From: Bryobacter sp. CoA8 C33
GTDB taxonomy: Bacteria > Acidobacteriota > Terriglobia > Bryobacterales > Bryobacteraceae
Reading direction: 5' to 3'
Length of the DNA stretch: 36,278 nt
NCBI GenBank assembly: GCA_019931185.1
Contig: JAINDK010000082.1
Coordinates: 1-36,278, forward strand
Numbering within the stretch: the first letter of the stretch is position 1; each line of letters starts with the position of its first letter. Below the pieces are notes generated by a model. That model was not told the DNA's origin, did no database searches, and saw only the letters and a program-made list of their open reading frames with translations. A program made the translations under genes and the position numbers. Positions 1,602 to 36,278 of this stretch are shown here, in pieces.

Positions 1602-1604
1602 CTT

Positions 1605-13518: not shown

Positions 13519-13548
13519 AGGAGGGCAGCCAAAGGTCGAATAACCCGG

Positions 13549-14406: not shown

Positions 14407-14413
14407 AGGCTGC

Positions 14414-15064: not shown

Positions 15065-16539
15065 TACTTTGCTCCTTGCGGCTGGTAGACGTAGAGTCCG
15101 GCCAGATTTGGGCCGGGTACGTGCTTGACGAGTTCATATCGGCGGCGAATGGCTTCGCGCTGCTCCCGGGTGAGCCGAGGGAATTCCGGGTTGGGATCAA
15201 TTGCGGCGCGGACGTCGTCATAGAGGATCACTGTGCTAAACCGCCCCTGGTCAAGATCCTGCTCGAGGCGGCGGCCGTCGATGCGGCCGGCTTCAACCAG
15301 CAGGCGGTAAATCAGCGGCTCGACCTCGAAGGAGCGCTGGGTTCGCATCAGACTATTGGAATCGGCCGACAGAACCCGGCCAGGTACCGCCAAGAAGGGT
15401 TTGACGGCGACGACCTGCTCAGCAAACCGCTGTTCTCGAGCCCAGCGTGTTTCCATGTCCATTACGGCGACCCGCACATTCTGAACGACAAACAAGGCCA
15501 ACGGCAGAACCAGCAGGGTCACCCAGCCTTGGCTGCCCCGGGCAAACAAGTCGAAGAAGCCGAGGCGGTTGAGCCCGATCATGGCGGCAAGCACGAGCAG
15601 GATGGAGGATTCAATCAGGTAGTTCGAGTCGGCGCCCACCTTGGGGGCCGTCAAAAGAAAGACTGCGGCCGCTAGCCCCAAGTAAAGATAGGGAGCCAGA
15701 ACTCCATCGCGACGGGCTGCCGGCAGGCTTGTCAGCACTGGCAGCAGGAGCGGTGAGAGCACGATTGCGAAATACTCAAGGGGCAAGCGCAGTTTGTAGA
15801 GAGCAAAAGGATTGATATTGGCGAAGACGGTATTGGTAAGAAAGCGGCCATCGAGCATTGTGTTGAGAGCCAGCACGAGCGCCGCGCCCAAGCCGCCGAC
15901 GAGCAGGGCAAAGCGTAACGCCGCGCTCCGATGGCGGGGCAGCAGGAGCAGGAAGATCGCCATCGGCGCCGCAATGACGGTTTGCTTGGTGAGCAAGCCG
16001 GCGAGAGCCCAGCCAGCAGCCCAATCGAGGGAAGCTGCCCCCAAGCGCTCAAAACGAGCGTAATGGTAGAAGGCCGCCAGCGAGAAAGCAATCGCCATTG
16101 TATCTACTTGGCCGACCGTGCCCCAGCCTAGAAGAATCTGCGTGAGCCCCGCCAGAGCCATCGTTAGCCTCTGCTCGCGGCGTGGCAGACCGTATACGGC
16201 GCCAAGGCGTCCAACCAGCCAGAACAGCGCGATTAAGGAAACAAAACTCAACGAACGGTCCGCGAGCAGTACAGGAATTCCCAGCTTTACCAAGCCAGCA
16301 GCCAGAGAGTAGAACAGCGGCATGTAGGCGCAGACCGTATAGGGGTATTGATCGAGGCTAAAGTATAAGGCTCCTGTCTGAGCGAAGTGCAGAATCTGGG
16401 TGGCGACAATGCCCTCGGGTTGGGTAAACTCATTACTCGCCCAGAGCGCCAAAGCGAGATGCAGCCCTACTAGTACTACAGCTAAAGCGATGCAAAAAAA
16501 GGGAATTGCCTCAATCTTGCCAAGCCTTAGTACTCGCAT
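15064..16539 (-). CDS. Polytopic membrane glycosyltransferase-like protein (GT-C type)
   Basis: A 491-aa inner-membrane protein with roughly ten hydrophobic segments starting at IPFFCIALAVVLVGLHLALAL. The first periplasmic loop carries acidic residues (NEFTQPEG) and an aromatic-rich stretch (DQYPYTVCAYMPLFY), as in ArnT/PMT-like GT-C enzymes that use polyprenyl-phosphate sugars. A soluble tail of about 130 residues follows the last membrane segment. An in-frame GTG at 16557 exists, but the ATG at 16539 is preferred because a GATAAT -10 box ends 7 bp upstream of it. It is the first gene of the operon with the methyltransferase and GT2. The GT-C assignment is from layout, not from a strict motif. 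Confidence 0.65.
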   Translation of the reverse strand: MRVLRLGKIEAIPFFCIALAVVLVGLHLALALWASNEFTQPEGIVATQILHFAQTGALYFSLDQYPYTVCAYMPLFYSLAAGLVKLGIPVLLADRSLSFVSLIALFWLVGRLGAVYGLPRREQRLTMALAGLTQILLGWGTVGQVDTMAIAFSLAAFYHYARFERLGAASLDWAAGWALAGLLTKQTVIAAPMAIFLLLLPRHRSAALRFALLVGGLGAALVLALNTMLDGRFLTNTVFANINPFALYKLRLPLEYFAIVLSPLLLPVLTSLPAARRDGVLAPYLYLGLAAAVFLLTAPKVGADSNYLIESSILLVLAAMIGLNRLGFFDLFARGSQGWVTLLVLPLALFVVQNVRVAVMDMETRWAREQRFAEQVVAVKPFLAVPGRVLSADSNSLMRTQRSFEVEPLIYRLLVEAGRIDGRRLEQDLDQGRFSTVILYDDVRAAIDPNPEFPRLTREQREAIRRRYELVKHVPGPNLAGLYVYQPQGAK

Positions 16540-16546
16540 ACAGTAA

Positions 16547-16552
16547 ATTATC
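16547..16552 (-). promoter_or_regulatory. -10 box of the GT-C/methyltransferase/GT2 operon
   Basis: Minus-strand GATAAT (5 of 6 to consensus) lies only 7 nt before the ATG at 16539, so the transcript would start at or next to the start codon. No convincing -35 is seen 17 bp upstream. This is the same geometry as at lexA and the Gfo/Idh gene. Confidence 0.45.
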
Positions 16553-16664
16553 GGCACTTTGGAGGCCTAGCTTTATCATCCAAGTACTGGGAAAAAGCGC
16601 ATCTTTTGGCTTGGGATGTACCATAGACGGGCTACTCCATGACTGGATAATCTCTGGGAAGCAT

Positions 16665-19307: not shown

Positions 19308-19946
19308 TTAGTATTTACGGAGGACAGCGAGGACGCGGCCCTGGACACTGACGACGTTTTGGGGGACCCGGATGGGGTCCATGGAGGAGTTGGCCGGCTG
19401 GAGGCGGACCATCTCACCGGGCTCGCGATAGAAGCGTTTGAGTGTAGTTTCCATGCCATCGACGAGGGCCACGACAATATCGCCATCGCGGACGGAGTGG
19501 ACTTTTTCGACCAGGACGAAGTCACCGGAGCAGATATGGTCTTCGATCATGGAATCGCCGCGCACCTGGAGGGCATAAGTGTCCTCGTTGCCAAGGAAAT
19601 CGCGGAAGGCGAGGGTCTCCTGGTTGGCGACGCTTTCGACGGGGGCGCCGGCGGCGATGCGGCCCAGCAGCGGCACCTGGAGGGCGGGGGTGGCGAGGGC
19701 AGGCGCGGCGGCGTAGCTACGGCGTTCTTCGAGGTATTTGGGGGAGATCTCGAGGGAGCGGCTCTGGTTGAAACCGCGCTTGAGATAGCCTTTAGTCTCG
19801 AGGGAGTGGATGTGCTTGTGAACAGTGGCCAGAGAAGTGAGATCCATGCCGGAGGCGATCTCCTCATAACTGGGGGAGTAACCGTGCCGTTCGATGAAGC
19901 TGGCAAGGAAGTCGAGCAGATCTTTTTGGCGACGGGTCAGAGCCAT
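19308..19946 (-). CDS. lexA: LexA repressor
   Basis: A 212-aa SOS repressor. The N-terminal winged HTH (SPSYEEIASGMDLTSLATVHKHIHSLETKG, about 24-53) binds the SOS boxes. The self-cleavage site is Ala99-Gly100 in GRIAAGAPV, and the catalytic dyad is Ser132 (GDSMIED) and Lys170 (ETTLKRF), all at canonical spacing. RecA-nucleoprotein-stimulated autocleavage would release DNA-repair genes. The ATG lies 6 nt after a -10 box with a dyad over it, which suggests autoregulation. It is 50 bp downstream of the serine hydrolase and 30 bp upstream of the GMC gene, all on the same strand. Confidence 0.95.
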   Translation of the reverse strand: MALTRRQKDLLDFLASFIERHGYSPSYEEIASGMDLTSLATVHKHIHSLETKGYLKRGFNQSRSLEISPKYLEERRSYAAAPALATPALQVPLLGRIAAGAPVESVANQETLAFRDFLGNEDTYALQVRGDSMIEDHICSGDFVLVEKVHSVRDGDIVVALVDGMETTLKRFYREPGEMVRLQPANSSMDPIRVPQNVVSVQGRVLAVLRKY

Positions 19947-19996: not shown

Positions 19997-21121
19997 TTAG
20001 TTCGCTGCGGCGGAAGCCATGGCAATGAAGTTTGCTTTTGCTTCGGCATTGCCGGAGCCGCCCTGCACGAGGAAGACGCCGACGAGTTGCTTTGCGCGGT
20101 CGATCCAGCCGTGGGTGCCGAAGGCGCCGCCATGGCCGAATGTGCCGATGGACCAGAGCATGGCGGCGGCGGCGGGATCCTTGGCGACCTCCCAGGTGAG
20201 GCCGAAGGCGGTACCGGCGTTGTGGCCGGCTTTGATGTCACCGGTCTGGACCATGGTCATGGCGGCGACGGAGGCTTTCGAGAGGAAGCGTTTGCCTTTC
20301 CAGGAGCCGCCGGCGAGCATCATCTGATAGAACTCGGCGAGATCGGCGGCGGTGGAATACAGGCCGAACTCGGGGGCCGGGTAGGTGGCGCCGGCGCGGA
20401 GGTTACGCGAGTCCCCGCCGAGGGTCGTGTGGGGGCAGGGGGAGAGTTTTCCGTCCTTGGTGCAGTAGTTGACGACGATGCGGGACTTCTTGTCCTCGGG
20501 GGGGAAGAAGAAGCTGTCCTTCATGCCGAGGGGGGCGAGGATGCGCTGGTGGATGAAATCTTCGTACTTCAAGCCACTGGTGACTTCGATGAGCCGGCCG
20601 AGGGTAGCGATTCCCATATTGGAGTAAACCCATTTCGTACCGGGATCGTAGATAAGCGGGACGGTGGCGTAGAACTTGACGGCGTCCTCGAGGCTGACCT
20701 TCATCGAGTAGTACCAATCGATGTTGGCGCCGATGGGATTGGAGGCCATGCCGGAGGTATGAGTCATGAGTTGGCGGACGAGGACATTGGGTTTGTCGCG
20801 GAATTCGGGGAGGTACTTGGCGACGGGGTCATGGAGGTTGAGTTTTCCTTCCTCGACCATCATCATGATGCCGACGCCGGTGAAGGGTTTGGTCATGGAC
20901 ATGATCTGAAAGATGGAGTCCTTGCGCATGGGCTTATTGTTTTCGCGATCGGCCCAACCGGTGACGGCGGAGTGAACGAGTTGACCTTTCTCGATGAGGA
21001 GTGTGACGGTGCCGTGGATATGGCCCTTGTCGACGTGAGCCTGCATGCGGGGTTCGATGCGGGCCAGCACGCTGGGATCGGCCGACTGAAGCAGGGCGAG
21101 GGAGAGGATCGCGTGGAACAT
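19997..21121 (-). CDS. Serine hydrolase, beta-lactamase class C/DD-peptidase fold
   Basis: A 374-aa secreted or periplasmic protein with a short hydrophobic start (MFHAILSLALLQSADP). The Ser-x-x-Lys catalytic tetrad is S75-M-T-K78 in IMSMTKPF; YSN (in KWVYSNMG) supplies the Tyr, and HGG (GTFGHGGAFG) replaces KTG near the C-terminus, as in esterase-type members. This beta-lactamase-related family includes esterases, peptidases and a few true AmpC enzymes; HGG rather than KTG favours an esterase. It is divergent from the gene at 21188 with 66 bp between them, and upstream of lexA on the same strand. Confidence 0.85.
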   Translation of the reverse strand: MFHAILSLALLQSADPSVLARIEPRMQAHVDKGHIHGTVTLLIEKGQLVHSAVTGWADRENNKPMRKDSIFQIMSMTKPFTGVGIMMMVEEGKLNLHDPVAKYLPEFRDKPNVLVRQLMTHTSGMASNPIGANIDWYYSMKVSLEDAVKFYATVPLIYDPGTKWVYSNMGIATLGRLIEVTSGLKYEDFIHQRILAPLGMKDSFFFPPEDKKSRIVVNYCTKDGKLSPCPHTTLGGDSRNLRAGATYPAPEFGLYSTAADLAEFYQMMLAGGSWKGKRFLSKASVAAMTMVQTGDIKAGHNAGTAFGLTWEVAKDPAAAAMLWSIGTFGHGGAFGTHGWIDRAKQLVGVFLVQGGSGNAEAKANFIAMASAAAN

Positions 21122-21187: not shown

Positions 21188-22843
21188 ATGATGACACGTC
21201 GAGACTTAATGGCGGTTGCTTTGGCGGTGCCGGCGCCGGGGCAGGATGGGGGCGGGGATCCATTGGAAATTGCCTTGGGGCACAGCAATGCGGCAGTGGA
21301 ATCTCTGTTGAAGCAGCAGATCCTGGATCCGGCGAGCCGCTGGCGGGGAGCGGTGTTGAACGGCTATGGCATACCGCTGCCGAGTTCGATGTGCGGGATG
21401 CTGGAGCACTATGGAGCGGCGCTGATGCACTCGAAGTCGAAGCACTACGGGAGCAGTGAACTGTTTGAGCGGATGAAGTTGACTGCGGCGCAATTGATGA
21501 AGAATCTGAGTGCGGAAGGCAATTTTTCCAATCTCGAGACGAATTTCAATTCGCCGGCGGACACTGCGTTTGGGGTGAGGGCGGCGGCCGTGGCGTTGTT
21601 GATCGCCAAGCAGAGAGGGAACCGGGAGGTATTCGAGCTACTGCGCCCAGTGATCGAGAGGATGGCTGGGGGGCTGGCGGTTGGGGGGATTCATACGCCC
21701 AACCACCGGTGGATCCTGAGCGCGGCGCTGGCGCAGGTGAACGAGTGTATTCCGAAGGAGTCATATGCGCGGCGGATCGACCAATGGCTGGCCGAAGGGA
21801 TCGACATCGATGAAGACGGGCAGTACACAGAGCGATCGACGGGGGGCTACAATCCGCTAGTGAACAATGCGCTGATCGCGATCGCGGAAAAGCACAAGCG
21901 GCCGGAATTGTTCGATGCGGTGGCGGCGAATCTGGAGGCGCTGCTGTATCTGATCCAGCCGAACGGGGAGGTGGTGACGGACTTTTCGCGGCGGCAGGAC
22001 CAGTTCACGATTGTGAAGCCGACGGCGAATTACTTTGCGTTGCACTATATGGCGCTGCGGCGGGGGAACCGGGCGTGGGGGAAGTTGGCCGAGGCGTTCC
22101 GGCCGGAGGCGTTGACGTTATCGACGGCGATGGTGAATCCGGAGTTTCTGAAGCCGATCGCGACGGGGCCGTTGCCGGAGAACTACCGGCGGGACTTCCG
22201 GCACAACCGGCTGACACGGATTCGGCGGGGCGATCAGGCGGCGACATTTTTCTATAACGGTTCGACGCGGGTGATGAATCTGGTGAAGGGTGAGGCGGTG
22301 GTGACGACGGTACGGTTTATCAGCGCGTTTTTCGGCAAGGGCCAATTCCGCAGCGAGAAGTACCGGAAGGAAGGGGCGCGGATTGATGCCTGGCAGAATT
22401 TGGAGGGGCCGTACTATCAGCCGTTTACGCCGGCGCGGAAGATCGATAGCGAGATGTGGGATTCCACGCAGAAGCAGCGGCCGCGTTCGGAGCTTTGCCG
22501 TTTTGAGCAAGGTGTGAGTTTTGAAGAGGCCGAGGGCGGCTACAACCTGAAGGTGCGAGCCGGGGGTACGGAGGATGTACCGGTGACGATTGAGATAGCG
22601 TTTCGGCCGGGCGGAGAGTTGACGGGGGTGAAGCCGGTGGCGAACGCGCCGGAGTCCTATCTGATTGATGGGCAGGAGGCGCGCTACCGTGTGGGGCGGG
22701 ATGTCATCAAGGTGAGCCCGGGGCGGAGCGAGCACTGGTGGACGCGCGAGATGCGGTACATCGAGCCGAAGCTGCCGGGGCCGACGCTATACCTGACGGG
22801 GTTTGCGCCGCTCGAGCATACAGTGAAGTTCCGGTTTGAATGA
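21188..22843 (+). CDS. Tat-exported protein, possibly heparinase/polysaccharide-lyase-like
   Basis: A 551-aa protein with a Tat-like start (MMTRRDLMAVALAVPAPGQ); GGAAGAG lies a few bases upstream. The N-terminal 300 residues are helical with repeated Trp/His/Asn-rich turns (TPNHRWILSAALAQVN, TERSTGGYNPLVNNAL) resembling an alpha/alpha-toroid. The C-terminal 250 residues are beta-rich (DFRHNRLTRIRRGDQAATFF ... EHWWTREMRYIEP). Toroid plus beta-sandwich is the layout of heparinase II/III-type lyases, but I cannot name a family or active-site set with confidence. In-frame coding upstream of 21188 is antisense to the serine hydrolase and is not part of the gene. Confidence 0.6.
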   Translation: MMTRRDLMAVALAVPAPGQDGGGDPLEIALGHSNAAVESLLKQQILDPASRWRGAVLNGYGIPLPSSMCGMLEHYGAALMHSKSKHYGSSELFERMKLTAAQLMKNLSAEGNFSNLETNFNSPADTAFGVRAAAVALLIAKQRGNREVFELLRPVIERMAGGLAVGGIHTPNHRWILSAALAQVNECIPKESYARRIDQWLAEGIDIDEDGQYTERSTGGYNPLVNNALIAIAEKHKRPELFDAVAANLEALLYLIQPNGEVVTDFSRRQDQFTIVKPTANYFALHYMALRRGNRAWGKLAEAFRPEALTLSTAMVNPEFLKPIATGPLPENYRRDFRHNRLTRIRRGDQAATFFYNGSTRVMNLVKGEAVVTTVRFISAFFGKGQFRSEKYRKEGARIDAWQNLEGPYYQPFTPARKIDSEMWDSTQKQRPRSELCRFEQGVSFEEAEGGYNLKVRAGGTEDVPVTIEIAFRPGGELTGVKPVANAPESYLIDGQEARYRVGRDVIKVSPGRSEHWWTREMRYIEPKLPGPTLYLTGFAPLEHTVKFRFE

Positions 22844-22989
22844 GCTTTGCTGACTTTCGCGCCTTCCCGGTTCCGTCGGCTTTTCTAAATAGGGGCCGTA
22901 CAATGCAATACGGACTTGGCATCGGTTGCCTAGTGTCTGGTTGATTTGTTCGTGGCGGCGGGCTGCCTGTCCTCAATCACGCTGCCAGA
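22844..22989. other. Intergenic, no gene seen
   Basis: No convincing reading frame. It holds one short dyad, CCGTA-N8-TACGG (22896-22913), without a T-run. The base composition here begins to change from G-rich to balanced on the + strand. Confidence 0.4.
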
Positions 22990-23349
22990 ACTGGCTGGCG
23001 GTGGCAAGGACTCGATTTCCACAATCCGCCATGGCGACGGCTGTGGGAAACCCTATCTCAAACCTTCTCCTTTGGAGAAACTATGAGATTAAATTGCTGG
23101 CTGGCGCTGTTTGAGCGCGAAGAGTCGCTCACCGTACCCGAGTTGACGCATCGGACTGTTGCCACGAATCGCTTGCGCCTGCTGTATCTGGCCGCCAGGA
23201 TTACCCGTCACGGCGGGCGAACCAAAATCCACTTTGGGGCCCAGTATCGGGAACGCAATCGCTTCGACCAACTCATGGCGCGATGGCGGGCCATTGCAAG
23301 AAGCCTCCCTGGCTTCGCGCCGGTGATCCACACGCCGCTGCGCGCATAG
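22990..23349 (+). pseudogene. Transposase C-terminal remnant (IS1380-like)
   Basis: One frame stays coherent from about 22990 (RWQGLDFHNPPWRRLWETLS) through an ATG at 23083 to a stop at 23349. The segment TNRLRLLYLAARITRHGGRT resembles the C-terminal end of IS1380-type DDE transposases, in which a Leu-rich helix is followed by an RHGR motif. A stop lies in frame upstream (22962-22964), and neither the catalytic domain nor recognisable IS ends are present. It is therefore a decayed fragment of an insertion sequence. The family call is from memory of the motif and is moderate. Confidence 0.5.
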
Positions 23350-23862
23350 GAGTCTATGCCCGGCGCGATGGCCCGGCGCCAAACGGGGCCAAAAGGAGAG
23401 ATATCGAAGACTAAATTATTGGCACAATCACCGGATGCCGATGGCGGATGCGCTGTTGCTACATAGCGTAGCGGTCAGCCTGTGTCTTGCTGTGCATGAT
23501 TTAGACCAACCAGATCAGCTGCTACTATTTACACCATCTGGTGAGCCTTCGGAAGGCCAACCTCGTTAGAGCAAAAAGGAAAAGCTACGCCAAAAGCAAA
23601 TCATTATACGGGTCCCCAATCCAGCTCCGGCTCAACTTGGACAGGAGTGACAAAAAGTATAGGGGCTACCTGATTGTCCAGCTAAGAAAATCTACTCTGG
23701 TGCGCCGATGCGACTGGTATTGTTTAATGGATCCAAACGGTAAGATGATGAACCCGATTGGCAATGATAAAGATGTCGAGGAATTCTTGTCCAGCCAATA
23801 ACCTGAAATCAGCGGGATATCAGCGGAAACACATCGTGTCGTCTCCAGCAGCCCCCACTCCC
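23350..23862. other. Gene-poor stretch with repeat copy 2
   Basis: This 513-bp stretch is noticeably lower in GC than its surroundings and contains no gene I can support. An 86-codon open frame (23541-23801) runs through the 59-bp repeat and has no recognisable family; its C-terminal half (MDPNGKMMNPIGNDKDVEEF) could be a decayed gene end. The + strand changes from G-rich to C-rich across this interval. Confidence 0.5.
23592..23650 (+). repeat. 59-bp dispersed repeat, copy 2
   Basis: Direct repeat of 1605-1663 with six mismatches, some 22 kb away and in the same orientation. Sequence on either side of the two copies is unrelated, so the unit is a defined element or element end rather than part of a larger duplication. 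Confidence 0.7.
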
Positions 23863-24039
23863 TTACTTCCCCCGCCCCGCCTGCCTCTGCTCAAAGCACA
23901 CACAGCAATCCGTACACCGCTTGCACCGCTCGCACAAGTGCAGGTCACAAGCGTCCTTCGTGCAGTGCACACAGATCGCTGTCGACCGTTCCCGGCATAT
24001 GTGACACACAAAAGGCTTGCCCGCCCCGGCCGCCGTCAT
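23863..24039 (-). CDS. 58-aa Cys-rich zinc-finger protein (B-box-like)
   Basis: The ATG overlaps the upstream stop (ATGA), giving 58 aa, of which 11 are Cys: C12, C15, C23, C26, C31, C36, C39, C42, C45, C46 and C48, with His at 13, 25 and 34. Consecutive CxxC pairs (CHIC, CVHC, CERC, CTDC) can bind two or three zinc ions in a B-box/double-zinc-ribbon arrangement. There is no signal peptide, so it should be cytoplasmic, unlike the two secreted proteins encoded upstream in the same operon. Function unknown; protein-protein or RNA binding are possibilities. Confidence 0.65.
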   Translation of the reverse strand: MTAAGAGKPFVCHICRERSTAICVHCTKDACDLHLCERCKRCTDCCVCFEQRQAGRGK

Positions 24040-24590
24040 TTCTTCTTCACCGGCGCCACCGCCGCCGGCCTCGGCGGCAATTGCGGCATATTCCGCTCCA
24101 CGCGGCATCGCTGCGCTTCCGTCTGCAACACCTCATACTCTTTATCCCGCAATGAAGCCAGATCGAGCAAATACGAGCGAAACTGATTCCGCCCCGGCGC
24201 ACTCGCCACAAAACTCTCTTCAATCGCCGCCACCGTACCCTCCGGTTCATACTTCCGGACCGCTTCCATCAATGACCTCTGCATGGAATCAAGTGCGTCA
24301 AACCGCAGAAAAATCTCCAATGCTACCGCCAGCTTTTCCGGCGTCTGCCGCAATTCCCCAATCGCCAGCGAAAGACTCTTCAACTGCGACACCATTCCCT
24401 CGTATTGGCTCAGATAAGCTACCGCCACACCCTGTTCCTTCCAGCGGTTCAAATCCACTTTGGCCAACTGTGGCGGGATCGCTTCAAACTTTGCTTTGAG
24501 TTCGTCCAGTTGCTGCCGCACATTCCACTCCGCGGGCACACCCTGTGCTCCCAGAATGGCCACAGTCAGCAGCAAAACAATCAGACGCAT
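24036..24590 (-). CDS. Secreted helical protein of unknown function
   Basis: 184 aa with a clear signal peptide (MRLIVLLLTVAILGAQG) and then an almost entirely helical, heptad-like sequence (VRQQLDELKAKFEAIPPQL ... LRDKEYEVLQTEAQRCRVER) ending in a Pro/Lys tail. No known domain recognised. The ATG overlaps the TAA of the FecR gene (TAATG) and its own TGA overlaps the zinc-finger start, so the three are translated as a unit. A periplasmic coiled-coil partner of the FecR-domain protein is a plausible inference. Confidence 0.7.
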   Translation of the reverse strand: MRLIVLLLTVAILGAQGVPAEWNVRQQLDELKAKFEAIPPQLAKVDLNRWKEQGVAVAYLSQYEGMVSQLKSLSLAIGELRQTPEKLAVALEIFLRFDALDSMQRSLMEAVRKYEPEGTVAAIEESFVASAPGRNQFRSYLLDLASLRDKEYEVLQTEAQRCRVERNMPQLPPRPAAVAPVKKK

Positions 24591-25393
24591 TAGAACCCGG
24601 GCGGCGGAGGAGGCGGCGGAGCACTGGGCGGTGGCGCCGGGGCGCCGGTATCTCCCGGTAATCCCACTCCGGGCGCACCCGTCGTCGGACCAGGCACAGG
24701 CAGGGGACTCGCCGCACCGGCACCCGCCCCACCAGTCCGCGGCGTGTTCAGCCAAACGTCGGCCATCACCCGCATCATCTTCTGCAACACATTACCCTTA
24801 TCGAATTGCTTCTGCGCCAGCGGTTGGTTCTTATACACACGAAGATAGTCACCACCGTTCAGAATCTTCGCGTCCGAAAACGGCATCAATGCATGCTGCA
24901 CAGCCACTTGGCCTTCTTCCACCAGCACCAGCGTCATTTCTTGTTCGTCCACCGTCACGTCGAACGTCGTTCCCCGCACCGAAATCACCGCTGACGGCGT
25001 CTGGATCCGGTTCGGGTTCGGCTTGCCGTTCAGCTTTTCAATGTGTACTTTGATGCGCCCGACCCAAAGGTCGATCAGCTCACGCAGATTGCCCTGGTTG
25101 GACCGGAACGTCGCCCGCGAATTCGGAAAGATTTCAAACACACTGCCATCCGGCACCTGTATCTTCGCGTATCCATCCGTACCCGTCAGAATTTCCTGCT
25201 TCGGGTTTACCGTGTCGCCCACATTCAACGCCCACGGCACTTCATCCTTGAGAACCTGCACTTGCCCCTGCGCATGCACAACCTTACCCGTGGCGGCGGG
25301 GTTGGCGGGAAACATCTGCGCCATACACACCACCCCGCTCGCCATGGCCATAACCATAACCGCGAAACCGAGTTGGAAGACAGTTCTCAACAC
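24590..25393 (-). CDS. FecR-domain secreted protein with proline-rich tail
   Basis: 267 aa. A signal peptide (RTVFQLGFAVMVMAMASGVV...AQ) is followed by a FecR-type beta-rich domain (about residues 35-165: GKVVHAQGQVQVLKDEV, LTGTDGYAKIQVPDGSVFEI, TPSAVISVRGTTFDVTV). The C-terminus is Gly/Ala/Pro-rich and ends in a run of seven prolines before GF. No TonB-receptor/sigma-factor pair is adjacent, so it is not a classic FecR anti-sigma factor; stand-alone periplasmic FecR proteins of this kind are common in acidobacteria. The start is probably GTG at 25393, because the frame upstream has no usable codon; the Shine-Dalgarno is weak. It is the first gene of a tightly overlapping trio. Confidence 0.8.
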   Translation of the reverse strand: MLRTVFQLGFAVMVMAMASGVVCMAQMFPANPAATGKVVHAQGQVQVLKDEVPWALNVGDTVNPKQEILTGTDGYAKIQVPDGSVFEIFPNSRATFRSNQGNLRELIDLWVGRIKVHIEKLNGKPNPNRIQTPSAVISVRGTTFDVTVDEQEMTLVLVEEGQVAVQHALMPFSDAKILNGGDYLRVYKNQPLAQKQFDKGNVLQKMMRVMADVWLNTPRTGGAGAGAASPLPVPGPTTGAPGVGLPGDTGAPAPPPSAPPPPPPPGF

Positions 25394-25564
25394 TACTTGG
25401 TCTTCAATCTTAACACCAAATCGTCTACCCCAAAAATTCCTTGCAATTCACCTTCCGTCGTCGAATCTCCGGCAACGATTAGCGAAACATCCCGTCCTAA
25501 CAACAGTTCGGCAAATGTTCGGCCGATCTTGAGCCTGAGGGTAAAGATTACAATGGAGAAACGA

Positions 25565-27283
25565 ATGTGTCGCTTTGACACAAAACGCCTTCCGCGCCTG
25601 GCCGCTCTCGCCGGGTGGGCCCTGCTGCTTCCGCTGGCCGCCCAACCCCCGGAGTACTCCCTCAATTGGCGCGGCATCGGCACAACCGTTGTTTTCAATT
25701 CGCGCGCCGGCTTTTCCTCCGGTCCCGTCGATGCCCTCTGGTTCTCCCCCGATGGTGCTGCCCTCGAAGTCCGCCTCCGCTCCGGTAAGCTCTACCGCAC
25801 GGTCGATTTCGACTCCTGGTCCCCGCTGGCCGAGCCCGGCCCGCGCTCTCCCCTCACCGCCGCCATCGTCAATCGCACCCCCGAGCCCGGTCTCACTGCT
25901 TACACCCCTCCCGGTAATGGCTATCGCGCCTACGCCGCCGGCCGCTTCCTTTGGCGCTCCGATGATTCTGGTAACACTTGGCAGAACCTGATCGCTCATG
26001 ACGACACCCGCCTCATTGGCGAAAATGTCCGAGCCCTCGCCCTCTCCCCACGCGACCCGGACCGTCTCGCCGTCTCCACCGACGAAGGCCTCTGGCTTAG
26101 TGCCGACGGCGGCCTCTCCTGGCTCAGCTTGAACGCCGGCCTCCCCAATCTCCGCCTCACTCGCCTTCTCGCCGCTCCCCAGGCCGGCCGCGGCCTCCTC
26201 GCCCAGTGGGAAAACGGCTCGCTCCTCGAATGGGTGCCCGGTTCCCGCGCCGCCTGGCAGGTTCTTCCCGCCGCTCCCCCCGTCCGGTACTCCCTCCGCT
26301 GGTCCGACAACGCTTCCCCCCAACTCCTGCTCGAAGTTCGTGATTCCCGCCTCTGGCGCTCCCTCGACGGCGGCCTCCGTTGGGATGACCTCACCGGCGA
26401 TCTCCCCGCTCAAACCCTCTCCGGCCTCGCGGCCGATCGTGACAGCGGCACCATCTACCTCGCCACCGATCGCGGCCTTTTTTACACTCTTAATTCCTTC
26501 TCCACCCTCAGTGCCCCGGCCTCCTGGATCCGCCTCGGCGGCAATCTCCCCCGCGCTGCCGCTCTCGATGTTCTCTTGAACGATGGCGGCAACTTTCTCT
26601 ATGTCTCTCTCGCCGACGAGGGCGTCTTCCTCACTCATGCCCCCCACCGCCGCCGCAACCCCTCTCTAGTCTCCGCCGCCGACCTCCAAACCCGTTCCGC
26701 CGCTCCCGGCGCTGTCCTCAGCGTCGTCGGCCTCAAGCTCGACCAAGCCCAGTTCGCCGGCCGCTCCATTCCCATCCTCTCCGCCTCCGACGACGAATCC
26801 CAGCTCCAGATTCCCTATGACGCCCCCCTCGGCGCCCCCGCCCTCGATCTCGCCGGCCCCGGCCACAACCTCCGCCTCGATCTCGACTTCGCCCCCACGG
26901 CCCCCGCCATCTTCACCGACCGGGACGGCGCACCCCTCCTGCTCGATGCCGCCACCGGCGAACTCCTCGAGCCCTCCGCCCCACTGCGCTCCGGCATGCG
27001 CGTCCAAATCCTCCTCACCGGCCTCGGTCGCGTTGAACCCTCCTGGCCCGCCGGCCTCGCCGCCCCCGATCAGAATCCCCCTCGCGTCGTCGCCCCCGTT
27101 CGCGTCTGGCTCAATGGTCAAACCCTCGAAGTCTCCCGCGCCGAACTCGCCGCCGGCTACGTCGGCTTCTACGCCGTCGAAGCGAAAATGCCCCCGGTGC
27201 TCGATACCGGCCTCGCCCAACTCCGCGTCGAAGCCGCCGGCCGTTACTCCCAGCCCATACTCGTCCGTACCTCCCTCGATTAG
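25565..27283 (+). CDS. Secreted beta-propeller protein with C-terminal TIGR03437-like domain
   Basis: 572 aa. GGAG lies 6 bp before the ATG at 25565, so that start is preferred to the ATG at 25553. A signal peptide (ALAGWALLLPLAAQ) precedes a propeller built of BNR/sialidase-like blades, each with a SxDGGxxW-type turn: RSDDSGNTWQNL, LSADGGLSWLSL, RSLDGGLRWDDL. The last 200 residues (APGAVLSVVGLKL ... LLTGLGRVEP ... AGYVGFYAVEAKMP) match the TIGR03437 pattern found in great numbers in Solibacter-type acidobacteria. The protein is extracellular; propellers of this type bind ligands or partners, and no sialidase catalytic residues are evident. It is divergent from the FecR operon. Confidence 0.8.
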   Translation: MCRFDTKRLPRLAALAGWALLLPLAAQPPEYSLNWRGIGTTVVFNSRAGFSSGPVDALWFSPDGAALEVRLRSGKLYRTVDFDSWSPLAEPGPRSPLTAAIVNRTPEPGLTAYTPPGNGYRAYAAGRFLWRSDDSGNTWQNLIAHDDTRLIGENVRALALSPRDPDRLAVSTDEGLWLSADGGLSWLSLNAGLPNLRLTRLLAAPQAGRGLLAQWENGSLLEWVPGSRAAWQVLPAAPPVRYSLRWSDNASPQLLLEVRDSRLWRSLDGGLRWDDLTGDLPAQTLSGLAADRDSGTIYLATDRGLFYTLNSFSTLSAPASWIRLGGNLPRAAALDVLLNDGGNFLYVSLADEGVFLTHAPHRRRNPSLVSAADLQTRSAAPGAVLSVVGLKLDQAQFAGRSIPILSASDDESQLQIPYDAPLGAPALDLAGPGHNLRLDLDFAPTAPAIFTDRDGAPLLLDAATGELLEPSAPLRSGMRVQILLTGLGRVEPSWPAGLAAPDQNPPRVVAPVRVWLNGQTLEVSRAELAAGYVGFYAVEAKMPPVLDTGLAQLRVEAAGRYSQPILVRTSLD

Positions 27284-27336
27284 CAACCCCGCCGCCCGCC
27301 ATGTTAATCTTAGAGTCTCCCCAGTAGGATTGCCCC

Positions 27337-28023
27337 GTGGATAAATCACTTCACAATGTCATCAAGCACGACTCGTTTGTAGAAACGGTTGGCGAAGCTT
27401 CCGGATACGTCTCCTCCCACCGTAAACAGGTCGCCACCTACGTCGGCATTGCCCTCGTCGTGGCGGCTCTCGGCTATGGAATCTATTGGTTCATGCAGAA
27501 CAAGAAAGCCGAGCGCCAGCAGGCCCTCGGCGCTGCCATGGCCATTGCTCAAGCCTCCACCAGCCGCACCACCGAAGAGGAAAAGAAGATCGTCGAAGCC
27601 TTCACCAAGGTCAGCACCAATTACTCCGGCTCCCGGGAAGGCAATCTCGCCCTCTACATGCTCGCCATGCTCGACATCGAACGCGGCGATATGGCCGCCG
27701 GCGAGAAAAAGCTCAACGCGGTCCTCTCCGGCGATAAAGAACCCGCTTCTCTCGCCCGCTTCACCTTGGCTGAGATCTATCTCGGCCAGGGTAAATCCGC
27801 CGAAGCAGAAAAAATTCTCCGGCAACTCCTCGACGATCCCACTTATATGCTCCCCAAGGAACAGGCTACCCTCCAACTCGGCCGCGTCCTCGCCAAGTCC
27901 AAACCCGAAGAAGCCCGCAAGCTCCTCGAACCCCTGCGCACCGCCCGCGCTCCCATCTCCACCCCCGCTATCGAAATCCTCGGTACTCTTCCCCCCGCCC
28001 CCCCAACGGCTCCCAAGAAATAA
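27337..28023 (+). CDS. YfgM-like membrane-anchored TPR protein
   Basis: A 228-aa protein starting GTG at 27337 with AGGA upstream. A cytoplasmic N-terminus is followed by one membrane helix (about residues 33-52, VATYVGIALVVAALGYGIYWF) and then TPR-like helix pairs (NLALYMLAMLDIERGDMAAG, ARFTLAEIYLGQGKSAEAEKI) and a Pro-rich end. This is the layout of YfgM/ancillary SecYEG translocon proteins (PF09976-like), which assist periplasmic folding. It ends 2 bp before the dGTPase start, so the two are co-transcribed. Confidence 0.75.
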   Translation: MDKSLHNVIKHDSFVETVGEASGYVSSHRKQVATYVGIALVVAALGYGIYWFMQNKKAERQQALGAAMAIAQASTSRTTEEEKKIVEAFTKVSTNYSGSREGNLALYMLAMLDIERGDMAAGEKKLNAVLSGDKEPASLARFTLAEIYLGQGKSAEAEKILRQLLDDPTYMLPKEQATLQLGRVLAKSKPEEARKLLEPLRTARAPISTPAIEILGTLPPAPPTAPKK

Positions 28024-28025
28024 TC

Positions 28026-29156
28026 ATGTCCGCCATCGGCGCCCTCGCCCCGCTTCGCTTCCCGGTGGAATCGACGCGGGGCCGCCGCTTTCCGGAGTCC
28101 CTCCCCTCCTTCCGCAACGACTTCCAGCGCGACCGTGACCGCATCGTCCATTCCCGCGCCTTCCGTCGCCTCGAAGCCAAGACCCAGGTCTTTCCCCCCG
28201 GCATCTCCGATCACTTCCGCAACCGCCTCACCCACACCCTCGAGGTCGCCCAGCTCGCCCGTACCGCCGCTCGCGTCCTCGGCCTCGACGAAGACTTCGC
28301 CGAAGCCCTCGCCCTCGCTCATGACATCGGTCATCCCCCCTTTGCCCACTCCGGTGAGCACGCCCTCAACGCCGTCCTCTCCCGCCACGGCGAGCGCTTT
28401 GAACACAACCTCCACGCCCTCCGCATCGTCGAGGTCTACGAACACCGCTACGCCCTCTACCCCGGCCTCAACCTCACCTTCGAGGTCCGCGAAGGCATCG
28501 TCAAACACTCCCGCGATCTCCCCCCCGGCACCACCGGCCCCCTCGCCGAATACCTCCCCGGCCTCAAGCCCCCCATCGAAGCCCAGCTCATCGACCTCGT
28601 CGACGAAATCGCCTACAACACCGCCGACACCGACGACGCCCACGAAGCCGGCTTCTTCCGCCTCTCCGAACTCGGCGCCGCCGTTCCCCTCGCCGCTGAA
28701 CTCATCGACGAAGTCGAAACCCACTTCCCCGCCGCCGAAGAACGCATCCACCTCCACGAAGTCCAGCGCCGCCTCATCGACCATCTCATGCGTGGCCTCA
28801 TGCAAGGCACTATCGAAGCCTGCCACTCCGCTCAGGTCCACGATGTCGAAGCCGTCCGCGCCCACCCCGATCGCCTCGTCCGCTTCACCCCTCAAGCCGC
28901 CGAAACCTCCCGCCTCCTAAAACAATTCCTCCACGCCCGCGTTTACCACACCCCCATCCTCGTCGAGGAACGCGATCAATCCGCCGCCGCCATCGAACTC
29001 CTCTTCGAGTTCCTCCTCGCCCACCCCGATCAACTCCCCCCCGGCCAGCCCGGCGACTCGCTCCCCCGCCGCATCTCCGATTACATCGCCTCCATGACCG
29101 ACCCCTACTTCCGCCGCGTCTACGCGAGCCTCGCCCCCCAGTTCACCTCGCGCTAG
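28026..29156 (+). CDS. dgt: dGTPase-like HD-domain triphosphohydrolase
   Basis: A 376-aa HD-superfamily hydrolase that splits dNTPs to nucleoside and triphosphate. The metal-binding set is visible: H70 (NRLTHTLEV), H99-D100 (LAHDIGHPPFAHSGE) and a later Asp in LIDLVDEIAYNTAD; FEHNLHALRI is the family-specific nucleotide-pocket motif. The length is that of the short dGTPase-like class (about 370-400 aa) rather than E. coli Dgt, so activity on dGTP specifically is not certain. It follows the YfgM-like gene by 2 bp, and its stop overlaps the end of the decayed DinB gene on the other strand. Confidence 0.9.
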   Translation: MSAIGALAPLRFPVESTRGRRFPESLPSFRNDFQRDRDRIVHSRAFRRLEAKTQVFPPGISDHFRNRLTHTLEVAQLARTAARVLGLDEDFAEALALAHDIGHPPFAHSGEHALNAVLSRHGERFEHNLHALRIVEVYEHRYALYPGLNLTFEVREGIVKHSRDLPPGTTGPLAEYLPGLKPPIEAQLIDLVDEIAYNTADTDDAHEAGFFRLSELGAAVPLAAELIDEVETHFPAAEERIHLHEVQRRLIDHLMRGLMQGTIEACHSAQVHDVEAVRAHPDRLVRFTPQAAETSRLLKQFLHARVYHTPILVEERDQSAAAIELLFEFLLAHPDQLPPGQPGDSLPRRISDYIASMTDPYFRRVYASLAPQFTSR

Positions 29157-29602
29157 CCGATCTCCTCGAGATGCTGTTTCAGATGCCTTGCTTAATCCCG
29201 TGCCAGCCGCTCAAGCGTCACCGCCGCCTTGCCCCCGATCACGCACGAATACTGCATCTGTTCCGCATTCATCTGCTCCATCACATCGGCTAAGTGCAGG
29301 TTCAGCGCTTCCCATAGCCGGACCACCTGATGCGCCTCCGTCCGCGAAAATGCCTGCACCTGAACCATATCGTCCTGCGCGTAGCCGGGCCACTTCACCC
29401 CGCCCTCTACCAGCGCGCGCACAAAGCGCTGATGATTGTTGATCGCTGAATCACACAGATGACCGGGAATCTCAATCGCCACCCATCGCCGCTCTCACCG
29501 GTCCGCGGTCCAGAATGCTGCCTGCCGCCCCAACAGCCTCTCGGCCCACTCCTGGCTCAGTTGCCGTAATTCTTGCGCGAGTTCAGTCAGCCGTAACGTT
29601 CG
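29153..29602 (-). pseudogene. DinB-superfamily protein, inactivated by nonsense codons
   Basis: A single minus-strand frame carries DinB_2-like sequence: GHLCDSAINNHQRFVRAL with the metal-ligand His residues, and the C-terminal VTLERLARD...ARHLKQHLEEI. It is broken by TGA at 29495-29497 and TAA at 29192-29194. Homology continues on both sides of each stop, so these are true nonsense mutations and not frame errors. The N-terminus beyond about 29602 is missing and overlaps another small gene. DinB-type four-helix proteins are thiol transferases or hydrolases. Only the central 96 codons remain open. Confidence 0.65.
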
Positions 29603-29738
29603 TTACCTCGGCCACCTTCACCCCATACATCTTCTCCAGTTGCCGCGTAATCTCCCGCGAATACCGGTCCGGATTCACTTCCCCCTCCTCTTGCTCCACC
29701 ACCAGCACTTTCACATAAAAATTGTATTTTTTCGGCAT
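29583..29738 (-). CDS. Small conserved-looking 51-aa protein
   Basis: MPKKYNFYVKVLVVEQEEGE... followed by NPDRYSREITRQLEKMYGVK and a Val/Thr-rich end. Alternating strand-helix-strand with charged helix; no known domain recognised. An upstream in-frame extension to 29864 would run through the tRNA gene and is rejected. It lies 35 bp downstream of tRNA-Leu on the same strand and may be transcribed with it. Confidence 0.5.
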   Translation of the reverse strand: MPKKYNFYVKVLVVEQEEGEVNPDRYSREITRQLEKMYGVKVAEVTNVTAD

Positions 29739-29773
29739 TTCGGGTTCTCGGCCTCGGAGGAAGGAAAGAATGG

Positions 29774-29862
29774 TGGTGGCGAAAGTCGGGGTCGAACCGA
29801 CACGTACAGTGAAGTACGGCAGATTTTGAGTCTGCTGCGTCTGCCAATTCCGCCATTTCGCC
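29774..29862 (-). tRNA. tRNA-Leu (anticodon CAA)
   Basis: Minus-strand 89-nt cloverleaf including encoded CCA. The acceptor arms are GGCGAAA and TTTCGCC with discriminator A. The D-arm GCGGAATTGGCAGACGC is typical of tRNA-Leu. The anticodon stem GCAGA/TCTGC closes loop CTCAAAA, giving CAA. A long class II variable arm (CGTACTTCACTGTACG) and the T-arm GTCGGTTCGACCCCGAC follow. It reads UUG codons. Downstream is a 51-aa gene; no integrase or att repeat is seen next to it. Confidence 0.97.
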
Positions 29863-29882
29863 ACGGCTTGGCCTTCTCAAAG

Positions 29883-29911
29883 TTTATCACTTGGCGTATA
29901 GTTCTCTGCAA
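29883..29911 (-). promoter_or_regulatory. Candidate promoter of tRNA-Leu
   Basis: On the minus strand, TTGCAG (29906-29911) and GATAAA (29883-29888) are 17 bp apart, and the -10 ends 20 bp before the mature tRNA 5' end. Spacing is ideal; the hexamers are only partly consensus. Confidence 0.4.
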
Positions 29912-29969
29912 TGCCCTTTCGCACGATCATCCTTTCTCCCTTCCTCGCCTGGCAGCTCCGTAAATCCCG

Positions 29970-30920
29970 ATGACCCGCCGCCAACTCCTCGCCGCCCTCG
30001 CCCCCCGCCCCTCTCTCCGCGAGCAGTGGCGCCTCATCCTCGGCAAACTCGAACCCGCCCCCACCGACCTCCGCTGGTTCGCCAATCCCCTCACCGAACG
30101 CATCCTCTCCACCTCCGACGCCGGCCCCTACCTCCGCCACCACGTCGAACTCCCCCTCGAAATCGATTTCTTCCAGCCCGGCCTCCTCCTCGTCCCCAAA
30201 CAACCCCACCCCCGCCGCGCCGCCGTCATCTGCTGGTCCTCCACCTCCCCCGACTGGCGCAAACCCGAAGACTGGTGGGGCGCCTGGCTCGCCTCCCACG
30301 GCTTCACCGTCTTCTGCTCCTGGTCCCACATCCGCCACTACCGCGACAACACCAATTACTCAAACGGCGTCAGCGAAAAAGTCTATGCCCGCTTCGGCCG
30401 CTGGGCCGCCCTCTCCCGCATGGTCTGGGATGTCCGCCAACAGGCCCGCTGGCTCGCCCGCCGCCACCACGTCCACCCCCGCCGCATCGGCTTCATCGGC
30501 AGTTCCCTCAGCGCCAAAACCGCCCTCTACGTCGCCCCCTTCGCCCCCGAAATCAACGCCGTCGTCTCCATCGATCCCCACGTCCCCCTCTGGGACGGCG
30601 GCACCAACTACCTCGCCCCCTGGTATCTCGACGCCGACCGCGTCTTCCCCGATATCCCCACCCCCGAGCGCACCGTCCGCAGCCTCCTCCACGGCCACGA
30701 CCACGACGAACTCCTCACCCTATCCACCCCCAAACCCCTCCTCATCATCGGCGGCAACGACAAGTCCCACTCCGACGGCCCCTCCACTCTCCCCCTCCTC
30801 CAAAAAGCCGCCCGCCCCCACCTCCAGTTCCACCTCCTCAACACCGGCCACACCGCCACCCACCCCGAAATCGAAGCCCTCTGGCAACCCTTCTTCTCTC
30901 GCTATCTCCTCGCTCAATGA
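29970..30920 (+). CDS. Alpha/beta hydrolase (esterase/acetyl-xylan-esterase-like)
   Basis: A 316-aa protein beginning MTRRQLLAAL; the hydrophobic stretch after RR is too short to be sure of Tat export. The alpha/beta-hydrolase core shows RRIGFIGSSLSAKTAL as nucleophile elbow (Ser in G-S-S-L-S, a variant of GxSxG), LLIIGGNDKSHS for the acid and LNTGHTATH for the catalytic His. A long loop with WSSTSPDWRKPEDWWGAW precedes the elbow. This is the arrangement of dienelactone-hydrolase/acetyl-esterase relatives; the substrate is unknown. Codon use is extremely C-ending, like other genes right of 24 kb. Its stop overlaps the convergent CDF-like gene by 7 bp. Confidence 0.7.
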   Translation: MTRRQLLAALAPRPSLREQWRLILGKLEPAPTDLRWFANPLTERILSTSDAGPYLRHHVELPLEIDFFQPGLLLVPKQPHPRRAAVICWSSTSPDWRKPEDWWGAWLASHGFTVFCSWSHIRHYRDNTNYSNGVSEKVYARFGRWAALSRMVWDVRQQARWLARRHHVHPRRIGFIGSSLSAKTALYVAPFAPEINAVVSIDPHVPLWDGGTNYLAPWYLDADRVFPDIPTPERTVRSLLHGHDHDELLTLSTPKPLLIIGGNDKSHSDGPSTLPLLQKAARPHLQFHLLNTGHTATHPEIEALWQPFFSRYLLAQ

Positions 30921-31480
30921 CACCCGCACCCCTTGCCCTCCCACGCCTTCCGCGCCTCCCATCCCATCAACGGCGTCATCGCCAGCGCCGCCACCCGGTC
31001 CACCCACCCCCACCCCACCAGCCACTGCGCCCCCATCCCCACCAGCAGGATCACCGATAAGTAGAAGCAGAAATCCGTCTGCTTCGCCTCGCTCTCGAGC
31101 GCGCACGACCCCAAGCTCCCCGCCACCTTCCGCTTCTCCCGCGCCAGCCACGGCATCACCACCACACTCAACGCCGCTATCGCCAGCCCCGCCTCGCTCC
31201 GCTCCGCCTCCCCCGCCTTGCTCAACGCCTGCCACGCCGTCCCCACCGCCAGTAACCCCAGGCTCACCCCCACCCACCGGCCCGCCGTCCGCTCGCTCGT
31301 CCGCGACAACAACAGCCCCAGCGCCGCCACGCTCGCCATCAACTCCACCACGCTGTCCAATCCAAAACTCACCAGCGCCACCGAACTCGCCACCGCCCCC
31401 GCGCCCACCGCCACCACCGCCTCCACCGCGTTATAGCCCAGCGTTAAATACTGCAGTTGTTTGCCTCGCTCTATGCTCAT
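30914..31480 (-). CDS. CDF-type cation transporter-like membrane protein, no cytoplasmic domain
   Basis: 188 aa with five or six membrane helices. The segment VSFGLDSVVELMASVAAL matches helix 2 of cation diffusion facilitators, including the metal-binding Asp position, and CALESEAKQTDFCFYLSVILL matches the second metal-site helix. The usual C-terminal cytoplasmic domain is absent, replaced by a short tail ending GCGCH that could bind metal. It starts 3 bp after the xerC stop, third in trmFO-xerC-CDF order. Truncated CDF-like proteins of this length occur in many genomes; transport activity and metal are unproven. Confidence 0.7.
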   Translation of the reverse strand: MSIERGKQLQYLTLGYNAVEAVVAVGAGAVASSVALVSFGLDSVVELMASVAALGLLLSRTSERTAGRWVGVSLGLLAVGTAWQALSKAGEAERSEAGLAIAALSVVVMPWLAREKRKVAGSLGSCALESEAKQTDFCFYLSVILLVGMGAQWLVGWGWVDRVAALAMTPLMGWEARKAWEGKGCGCH

Positions 31481-31483
31481 CTC

Positions 31484-32416
31484 TCACGCCTTCGGGTGCG
31501 CCTTCTGGTACACCCTCTCCAGATCCTCAATCGCCACCTTTGTATAAATCTGCGTCGTCGACAAGCTCGCATGCCCCAACAACTCCTGTATCGCCCGCAG
31601 GTCCGCCCCCGCGTTCAACAAATGCGTCGCAAAGCTATGCCTCAATTCATGCGGATGCACGCTCGGATCTCCTAACAGCATCTTTCCATAAAACTTCACC
31701 GTCTGATGCACCGCCCTCGTCGTCAGCCGCTTCCCCTTGTAATTCACAAACACCGCCTCCTCCCCCGCCGCCCCCCGCCGCTCCCGCAAATACCCCGCCA
31801 GCGCCTCCACCGCCGTCCTCCCCATCGGCGCCACTCTCTCCTTGTTCCCCTTGCCCACCACCCGCAACCACCTCTCCTCCAAATCCACATCCCCCACATC
31901 CAACCCCACCACCTCGCTCACCCGCAACCCACACCCATACATCAGCTCAAACAGCGCCCGGTCCCGCGCCGCATACGGCCTCTCCAGCGTCCCCGCCCCC
32001 ACCTCATCCACCAGATAATTCACCGCCTCCGCATCAAGCACCTGCGGCACCTTCTTCGGCGTCCGCGGCAGCTTCAGATACTTCGCCGGATTCTTCTCAC
32101 ACCACTCCCGCTTCCGGCAATAGTGAAAGAAACTCCGCACCGCGCTCACCTTCCGCCTCACACTCACCGCCGCCAGCCCCTTCTCATACAGCCCCGCCAT
32201 CCACTCCCGCAATTCATTCACCCCAATCCCCCCCGGTCCCACCCCCATCCCCGCGAAGTGCTCCAAAAACTGCTCCAGATCAATCGCGTAATTCCGCAGC
32301 GTATGCTCGCTCCGGCTCTCCACCGCCCGCGCCGCCAAAAACTCCAGCACCGCCTCCTTCAGCGGCCCCGGCCCAAACCGCCCCAGCCTCTCAGACGCCG
32401 ACGCCGAAATACTCAT
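31484..32416 (-). CDS. xerC: Tyrosine recombinase XerC/XerD type
   Basis: 310 aa from ATG 32416. An N-terminal SAM-like core-binding domain (SEHTLRNYAIDLEQFLEHF) precedes the catalytic domain with the full pentad and Tyr: R165 (CGLRVSE), K189 (GKGNKER), H256-x-x-R259 (HELRHSFATHLL), H282 (LGHASL) and Y291 (TTQIYTK). Xer recombinases resolve chromosome dimers at dif. The gene follows trmFO, overlapping its end by 26 bp, the same order as in Firmicutes (trmFO-xerC), which supports the xerC name and a housekeeping rather than phage role. A further upstream in-frame ATG at 32452 is less likely. Confidence 0.9.
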   Translation of the reverse strand: MSISASASERLGRFGPGPLKEAVLEFLAARAVESRSEHTLRNYAIDLEQFLEHFAGMGVGPGGIGVNELREWMAGLYEKGLAAVSVRRKVSAVRSFFHYCRKREWCEKNPAKYLKLPRTPKKVPQVLDAEAVNYLVDEVGAGTLERPYAARDRALFELMYGCGLRVSEVVGLDVGDVDLEERWLRVVGKGNKERVAPMGRTAVEALAGYLRERRGAAGEEAVFVNYKGKRLTTRAVHQTVKFYGKMLLGDPSVHPHELRHSFATHLLNAGADLRAIQELLGHASLSTTQIYTKVAIEDLERVYQKAHPKA

Positions 32417-33716: not shown

Positions 33717-33752
33717 GGAAATTCCGATTTTACCAAGTGATAAAATCCGGCT
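33717..33752. promoter_or_regulatory. Compact divergent promoter with mirrored extended -10 boxes
   Basis: The 36 bp between trmFO and the oxidoreductase hold a perfect 7-bp inverted repeat, GATTTTA (33726-33732) and TAAAATC (33741-33747). Each arm is the -10 of one gene: TGATAAAAT to the right and TGGTAAAAT to the left, both with the TGn extension. They end 6 nt before the oxidoreductase ATG and 10 nt before the trmFO ATG, leaving almost no 5' leader. No good -35 is seen, as expected for extended -10 promoters. Confidence 0.6.

Positions 33753-34945: not shown

Positions 34946-34946
<1 letters not shown>
33753..34946 (+). CDS. Gfo/Idh/MocA-family oxidoreductase, Tat-exported
   Basis: 397 aa. 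A Tat signal (STRRDLLRLGGAAFSAASY) precedes a Rossmann fold (IHLGLIGAGGRGVYVTRVF). The VEKPLT motif of the family, supplying the catalytic-region Lys, sits near residue 125, and the C-terminal domain includes GGQVTDLFTHWIDVVHMF. Such enzymes oxidise or epimerise sugars with bound NAD(P); the Tat-exported kind in acidobacteria and planctomycetes is tied to glycan breakdown. Its stop overlaps the sulfatase start (TAATG), so the two act on the same kind of substrate, probably a sulfated or decorated sugar polymer. Confidence 0.88.

Positions 34947-36278
<1,332 letters not shown>

Follow-up and report, generated by a model that had tools for sequence, protein, structure and literature searches.

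The window, a contig of 36,278 nucleotides analysed over its whole length, changes its strand composition between positions 22,844 and 23,862, with a G-rich + strand to the left (1–22,843, GC skew +0.21) and a C-rich one to the right (23,863–36,278, −0.34). This kilobase is probably a lineage-specific rearrangement seam. A piece with positive skew, ending after the last gene of the left side, would have been joined amid truncated repeats to a piece with negative skew that starts before a gene for a FecR-domain protein, two pieces that are distant from each other in relatives. The polarity itself probably stems from a strong regional strand-asymmetric substitution that exchanges C and G at synonymous sites. 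Mutation differing between leading and lagging strand would be its simplest origin, in a genome that presumably rearranges faster than its composition re-equilibrates.

Base composition of the window

The window is the entire contig C40 of an assembly of 5.05 Mb in 138 contigs that is 97.7% complete. GC skew was calculated to be +0.211 for the left side, −0.007 for the seam and −0.345 for the right side. The cumulative G−C walk peaks at position 23,781 with a value of 2979, compared to a largest value of 933 in 5000 shuffles of 100-bp blocks. The flip noted in the preliminary description is therefore real, the skew changing sign across 22,844–23,862 for genes of both strands, and the four 60-base counts given there are exact (7381–7440, G30/C15; 9001–9060, G31/C11; 30,001–30,060, C32/G12; 33,301–33,360, C30/G10).

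Fourfold skew, defined as (G−C)/(G+C) at fourfold sites and read on the + strand, was determined for eight Pfam-supported or conserved genes. Its sign follows the side and not the strand of the gene, as had been claimed. On the G-rich side, values of +0.72 were obtained for a LexA-like repressor (19,308–19,946, − strand; PF00717, PF01726), +0.81 for a beta-lactamase-family protein (19,997–21,121, − strand; PF00144) and +0.75 for the last gene of this side (21,200–22,843, + strand), which is without a Pfam match and is referred to as the left gene. On the C-rich side, the values are −0.56 for the FecR-domain protein used as anchor of this side (24,590–25,393, − strand; PF04773), −0.81 for a TPR gene (+ strand), −0.90 for an HD-domain phosphohydrolase (28,026–29,156, + strand; PF01966, PF13286), −0.86 for a GidA/TrmFO-like gene region (32,391–33,707, − strand; PF01134; within an ORF at 32,391–34,871) and −0.97 for a GFO/IDH/MocA oxidoreductase (33,753–34,946, + strand; PF01408). 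The gene caller was crude and chose an ORF at 25,043–27,280 (+ strand) in place of the FecR gene, which has Pfam support on the opposite strand; the Pfam-supported genes alone reproduce the result.

The glycosyltransferase and GMC regions had been described as weaker yet still G-leaning, which agrees with skews of +0.05 over 13.5–16.5 kb and +0.16 over 16.9–19.3 kb. The glycosyltransferase and methyltransferase genes at 13,500–16,600 have a fourfold skew of only +0.09 to +0.18 within the G-rich side, and this stretch is possibly a younger insert. The same side holds a tandem duplication of adjoining outer-membrane beta-barrel genes (PF25183; 1749–4248 and 4399–6898), the copies of which are 85% identical over 2501 bases.

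Synteny across the seam

Homologues of the left gene were found in 28 of 81 genomes and homologues of the FecR gene in 59 of 81. Among the same-genus genomes that hold both, the two genes are close to each other in none. In the near-complete genome G006 they are located on C3, a contig of 4.26 Mb, at 602 kb and 1889 kb, 1.29 Mb apart, and the corresponding two sides are without a comparable flip. In G001, G003 and G004 they are found on separate contigs; these genomes are drafts, so that a contig change is not always a break. Each side is conserved in itself. The left gene is followed by a conserved block, here called X, in all four relatives fetched (G001, G003, G004 and G006). The C-rich side forms a collinear block in relatives and is preceded by a block Y in all four relatives with contigs reaching far enough (G003, G004, G005 and G006). 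The contigs of G001 and G002 begin 0.9–1.2 kb before the right block, hence the adjacency to Y is not readable there. An adjacency that is missing in relatives, between two sides that are both conserved, is the pattern of a rearrangement breakpoint.

The former neighbours of both sides are located elsewhere in the same genome. Block X lies at C64:65.8–74.6 kb, with homology to G001 reaching to within 0.1 kb of the end of the left gene there. Block Y is split between C122:28.9–32.8 kb, at the contig end, and C1. The skew of X is about +0.15 (read in the ancestral direction) and that of Y about −0.3, so each block retains the sign of its former partner. The position of X inside C64 indicates that, in this assembly, the ancestral adjacency of the left side was broken independently of the join in the window. 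The reciprocal product of an inversion, Y joined to X, was not found: in C64, different sequence comes after X, and in C122 the contig ends after Y. In the absence of a simple reciprocal product, more than one event is needed. Of the inversion junction considered in the preliminary description, the rearrangement junction is supported, the adjacency being broken with respect to four same-genus relatives, while a simple reciprocal inversion was not found.

Structure of the seam

The seam is a composite of pieces of at least three truncated repeats. The first (22,930–23,096) has copies at C72:481–648 (91% identity) and C111:225,295–225,449 (82%). It is followed by a transposase relic on the + strand, truncated at its 5′ end (23,092–23,502). 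An ORF at 23,083–23,349 matches the end of PF13701 (DDE_Tnp_1_4) with 23.2 bits over 64 residues only, which is below the curated cut-off of 34.7 and marks it as a relic rather than a family member. Transposases of PF13701 are presumably those of IS1380. Further copies of the relic are present in C4, C24, C54, C71, C92, C94 and at the start of C118, and the relic in the seam is cut on the 5′ side at the point where C24 and C118 carry on. Positions 23,092–23,196 are identical to C4:1–105, where contig C4 begins, and the first 54 bases of C118 are relic sequence in the opposite orientation.

The third piece is the end of a multi-copy element (23,505–23,650, + strand) with 11 aligned copies, two of them within the window. 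All 11 stop at the same letters (...ACAGGAGTG), several at contig ends, which indicates that the element breaks assemblies. The second copy in the window (1604–1666) shares 60–63 identical bases with the end copies of C50, C71, C109 and C122. An ORF of 86 amino acids with no assigned function (23,541–23,801, + strand) spans the end of the element. Searches with Rfam and ARAGORN detected neither an RNA nor a tRNA at the seam, the only hit in the window being a tRNA-Leu at 29,774–29,862. It is conceivable that repeats of this kind caused the joins.

Repeats may also have misled the assembler, which could have crossed between repeat copies and so created a flip that is absent from the cell. This reading has to be weighed because the 105-bp exact repeat that forms the start of C4 sits inside the seam. 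The starts of both C4 and C118 fall in the relic, a sign of branching, the repeat copies have differing neighbours, and the assembly graph was probably branched at this place. In the alternative pairing skew would be continuous: the left side (+0.24) would go with the start of C4 (about +0.3), and the right side (−0.22) with the reversed C118 (−0.25 at 2–3 kb). In addition, block Y, the ancestral neighbour of the right side, ends C122 within a copy of the element end. However, read pairs usually span more than 105 bp, and the remaining exact matches through the seam are at most 62 bp in the contigs fetched. With the whole assembly considered, the closest other copy matches at 94% identity over 411 bases, the reversed C118 has a longer transposase and thus a fuller copy of the element, and X lies inside C64, where it is already joined to other sequence. 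A misjoin is therefore regarded as unlikely, and the rearrangement join would be present in the cell and not merely in the assembly.

Other skew steps in the genome

Fifteen stretches on 14 contigs, 954,034 bases in total, were searched for steps, defined as skew changes of at least 0.22 with 6-kb flanks. These 0.95 Mb of the 5.05-Mb assembly contain 16 steps, rising as well as falling. Five were tested for synteny, including the one in the window at 23.7 kb, and all five are located at synteny breaks, two of them less clean. At C111 99.3 kb, the left flank is collinear in G001 and G003 and partly in G006, and the right flank lies elsewhere in all three. At C111 249.0 kb, each of these three relatives has its break at 248.9–249.5 kb, with one left-side piece sharing a contig with the right side in G003. 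The less clean cases are C71 36.1 kb, where the left is collinear and the right maps only as short or multi-copy pieces, and C71 51.9 kb, where the surroundings are broken to the left and to the right and G006 shows a local swap of order. The idea that a flip of C71 and the flip of the window, which share the relic, are of one kind was wrong, since the type of a flip is strand-invariant and one rises where the other falls.

Breaks were also observed in flip-free controls. For C131 60–80 kb, G003 is collinear (across contig ends), G001 changes contig at 3.8 kb and G006 shows a 68-kb jump without turning at 10.1 kb, with no break common to all three. For C111 120.6–139 kb, one order is kept in all three relatives, which then all break at 139.1 kb with the sign unchanged. 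Another ancestral break without sign change is C64 74.6 kb. Breaks are therefore widespread, and some occur without a flip; because flips defined the places tested and breaks are so numerous, a certain degree of coincidence is to be expected. Within 1.5 kb, 6 of the 16 steps have 60 or more repeat bases, compared to 1.2 expected (p 0.002), and the other 10 stay below this number.

Strength of the strand bias

Where the bins are most strongly skewed, the + strand carries 80–81% C and 7–10% G at fourfold sites, or 77–84% G and 5–9% C. Fourfold A and T shift little between domains, and both gene strands behave alike (501 called genes). Third codon positions follow the region, as previously stated, with a correlation between + and − genes per 10-kb bin of r 0.90 and the same sign in 48 of 53 bins. 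The sign belongs to the region and not to the gene: LexA has +0.72 in the source genome and −0.53 in G004, and the HD gene −0.90 in the source genome and +0.44 in G002. Large differences in skew occur between orthologues that share up to 91% protein identity, and other orthologues reverse sign.

Taken over 5-kb bins, the absolute skew has a median of 0.166 in the source genome and of 0.055 in G006. The two contiguous outgroup genomes G015 and G052 are nearly skew-free: 12 samples, all within the initial 3.42 Mb of G015 (6.69 Mb), have a median of 0.015, and 8 samples spread across 6.19 Mb of G052 one of 0.020. In other genera of the family, 37 loci gave a median of 0.026 and a maximum of 0.134. 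The gene dnaA is intact in 55 of the 61 genomes searched, including the source genome. With DnaA of G006 as query, in a search from which records close to the window may be missing, the nearest named relatives are metagenome-assembled genomes of Bryobacterales and Acidobacteria with 59–62% identity. Skews on the two sides of dnaA in four named loci of Bryobacterales or Acidobacteria are +0.04/+0.16 (L229), 0.00/+0.04 (L230), −0.01/+0.05 (L231) and −0.15/−0.14 (L232), with no clear switch at dnaA in any of them. Two of these named relatives reach about 0.15, hence skew is not confined to the genus. In G006, the means left and right of dnaA are −0.025 and +0.025 (p 0.03, 39 evenly spaced samples), a weak trend, and the best split at any place gives p 0.06.

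Gradual changes of skew

Outside the seams, skew drifts over 80–150 kb, with an apparent tendency to fast rises and slow falls. On C131 (L120–L126 and L172), per-gene fourfold skew passes from +0.97 to −0.79 over 153 kb on both strands and without a sharp step. A single step was rejected here. A quadratic with four parameters (BIC −305.6) or a line fits better than models of up to six steps, and a staircase of seven steps is slightly better (−310.8). At C111 17–97 kb, a five-step staircase (BIC −163.9) beats a line (−148.0), and at C111 104–209 kb line and staircase tie (−263.2 and −261.8). In G006, skew falls slowly at 560–680 kb from about +0.04 to −0.24 and then climbs to +0.16 in about 15 kb. 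Contrary to the pattern, the rises on C72 and C94 are slow.

The distribution of slopes was tested post hoc. With nine sharp steps removed, the slopes of the source genome have a skewness of 1.33 (p 0.007), corresponding to few fast rises and many slow falls; with all steps kept, the skewness is 0.13 (p 0.35) and the share of falling slopes gives p 0.014. Contiguous stretches of relatives yielded a skewness of 0.92 (p 0.007) and p 0.093 for the share falling. When the fast rises were searched for a common origin-like sequence, only repeats were found, and rise zones hold 0 or 1 DnaA boxes each compared to a mean of 1.6 per 18 kb. A repeat (C111:8341–8510) occupies the centre of the best fast rise, at C111 8.6 kb. 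It has copies of 97–99% identity in C94, C64, C122, C1, C24, C54 and C38, several of them at contig ends. On L172 (11,789–11,879), ARAGORN predicted a 91-base tRNA-Ala with anticodon agc, which is unusual and perhaps false.

Origin of the skew domains

A replication terminus, the other option of the preliminary description, would be the turning point of a chromosome with two replichores. At a terminus, the + strand is expected to turn from G to C, as it does in the window, and the cumulative maximum lies at the flip. In contrast to such a terminus, the flip is not unique, being one of 16 steps of both signs, synteny is broken at it, and the counterpart sides in G006 are without a flip. The best dif-like match within 22.8–23.9 kb reaches 16 of 28 positions, compared to 19 of 28 elsewhere, for four consensus strings that may not be those of the lineage. 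The option is thus not supported by the steps and the broken synteny, and a terminus is extremely improbable. Lack of a global turning point together with intact synteny had been named beforehand as refuting a terminus or inversion junction; the 16 steps in the sampled 0.95 Mb correspond to the former, and synteny is broken. Transcription or codon selection as the source of the skew is hardly credible. A gene-strand effect on fourfold skew exists but is small (0.08–0.22), both strands share the regional sign, and orthologues differ or reverse as described above. An effect of gene direction was rejected, as both strands agree per bin and per side.

Dispersed replication, with many starts and broad ending zones, would leave slow falls of skew between fast rises, into which the seam of the window would have been cut. 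The C131 ramp, fitted about as well by a curve as by seven steps, points in this direction, as do the slow fall and fast rise in G006 and the skewed slopes of the source genome (sharp steps removed) and of its relatives. Some cyanobacteria with multiple origins show irregular skew as well (PMC7198777). However, the skewness of the slopes vanishes when all steps are kept, and the test was post hoc. C111 17–97 kb is better described by a staircase, C72 and C94 rise slowly, a repeat lies at the centre of the rise at C111 8.6 kb, and the rises share no DnaA-box cluster and no common sequence other than repeats. The widely intact dnaA and the weak two-sided trend at dnaA in G006 also argue against it. 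Dispersed replication is therefore considered quite unlikely. Strand-asymmetric mutation together with shuffling of the genome is the most likely explanation of the seams, although the ramps would not result from inversions alone, and replication would be the source of the asymmetry.

Comparison with known systems

In the SkewDB description, inversions, integration and assembly faults are named as causes of skew discontinuities, and the typical skew amplitude is 2.5% (PMC8941118). The flip resembles discontinuities at rearrangement breakpoints in its sharp sign change, broken synteny and repeats at the joint, but the amplitude in the source genome is far higher than this typical value and there are many steps per megabase. 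Cyanobacteria with irregular GC skew have multiple origins and no DnaA dependence, as stated in the study cited above (PMC7198777). They share with this genus the lack of a clear two-replichore skew despite dnaA, whereas the skew of the source genome is locally very strong. Candidatus Solibacter usitatus is also acidobacterial, with many mobile elements and inferred rearrangements; the sections of its genome account used here report no skew domains (PMC3174227).

Human skew N-domains (PMC3320577) may have in common with the ramps a fast rise, a slow and approximately linear fall and independence from gene direction. The ramps of the source genome differ in being bacterial, about 10 times shorter and cut by rearrangement seams. 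By analogy, the chromosome of this Bryobacterales-related genus might have many preferred start zones and dispersed ends, so that a bias exchanging G and C would record the average fork direction at nearly every synonymous site. It would be a bacterial counterpart of N-domains, with the flip of the window as one of many seams cutting it; we put this forward as a speculation with little chance of being correct. A literature search for 'sawtooth' with GC skew found no paper, and neither did a six-term query on inversions; no wider claim is made.

Implications

Skew flips are often used to locate replication termini and to flag inversions. The flip of the window would mislead if it were used to place a terminus. 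It is the unusually strong strand-bias domains around it that need explanation. The synonymous choice between G and C is almost fixed by domain, can change sign for one and the same gene between close species and is seen beside nearly skewless relatives, which offers a way to time rearrangements. The same system allows one to ask which mutational process turns C into G in a strand-specific manner. If it is true that the ramps reflect fork direction, the replication programmes of uncultured bacteria would become readable from their assemblies.
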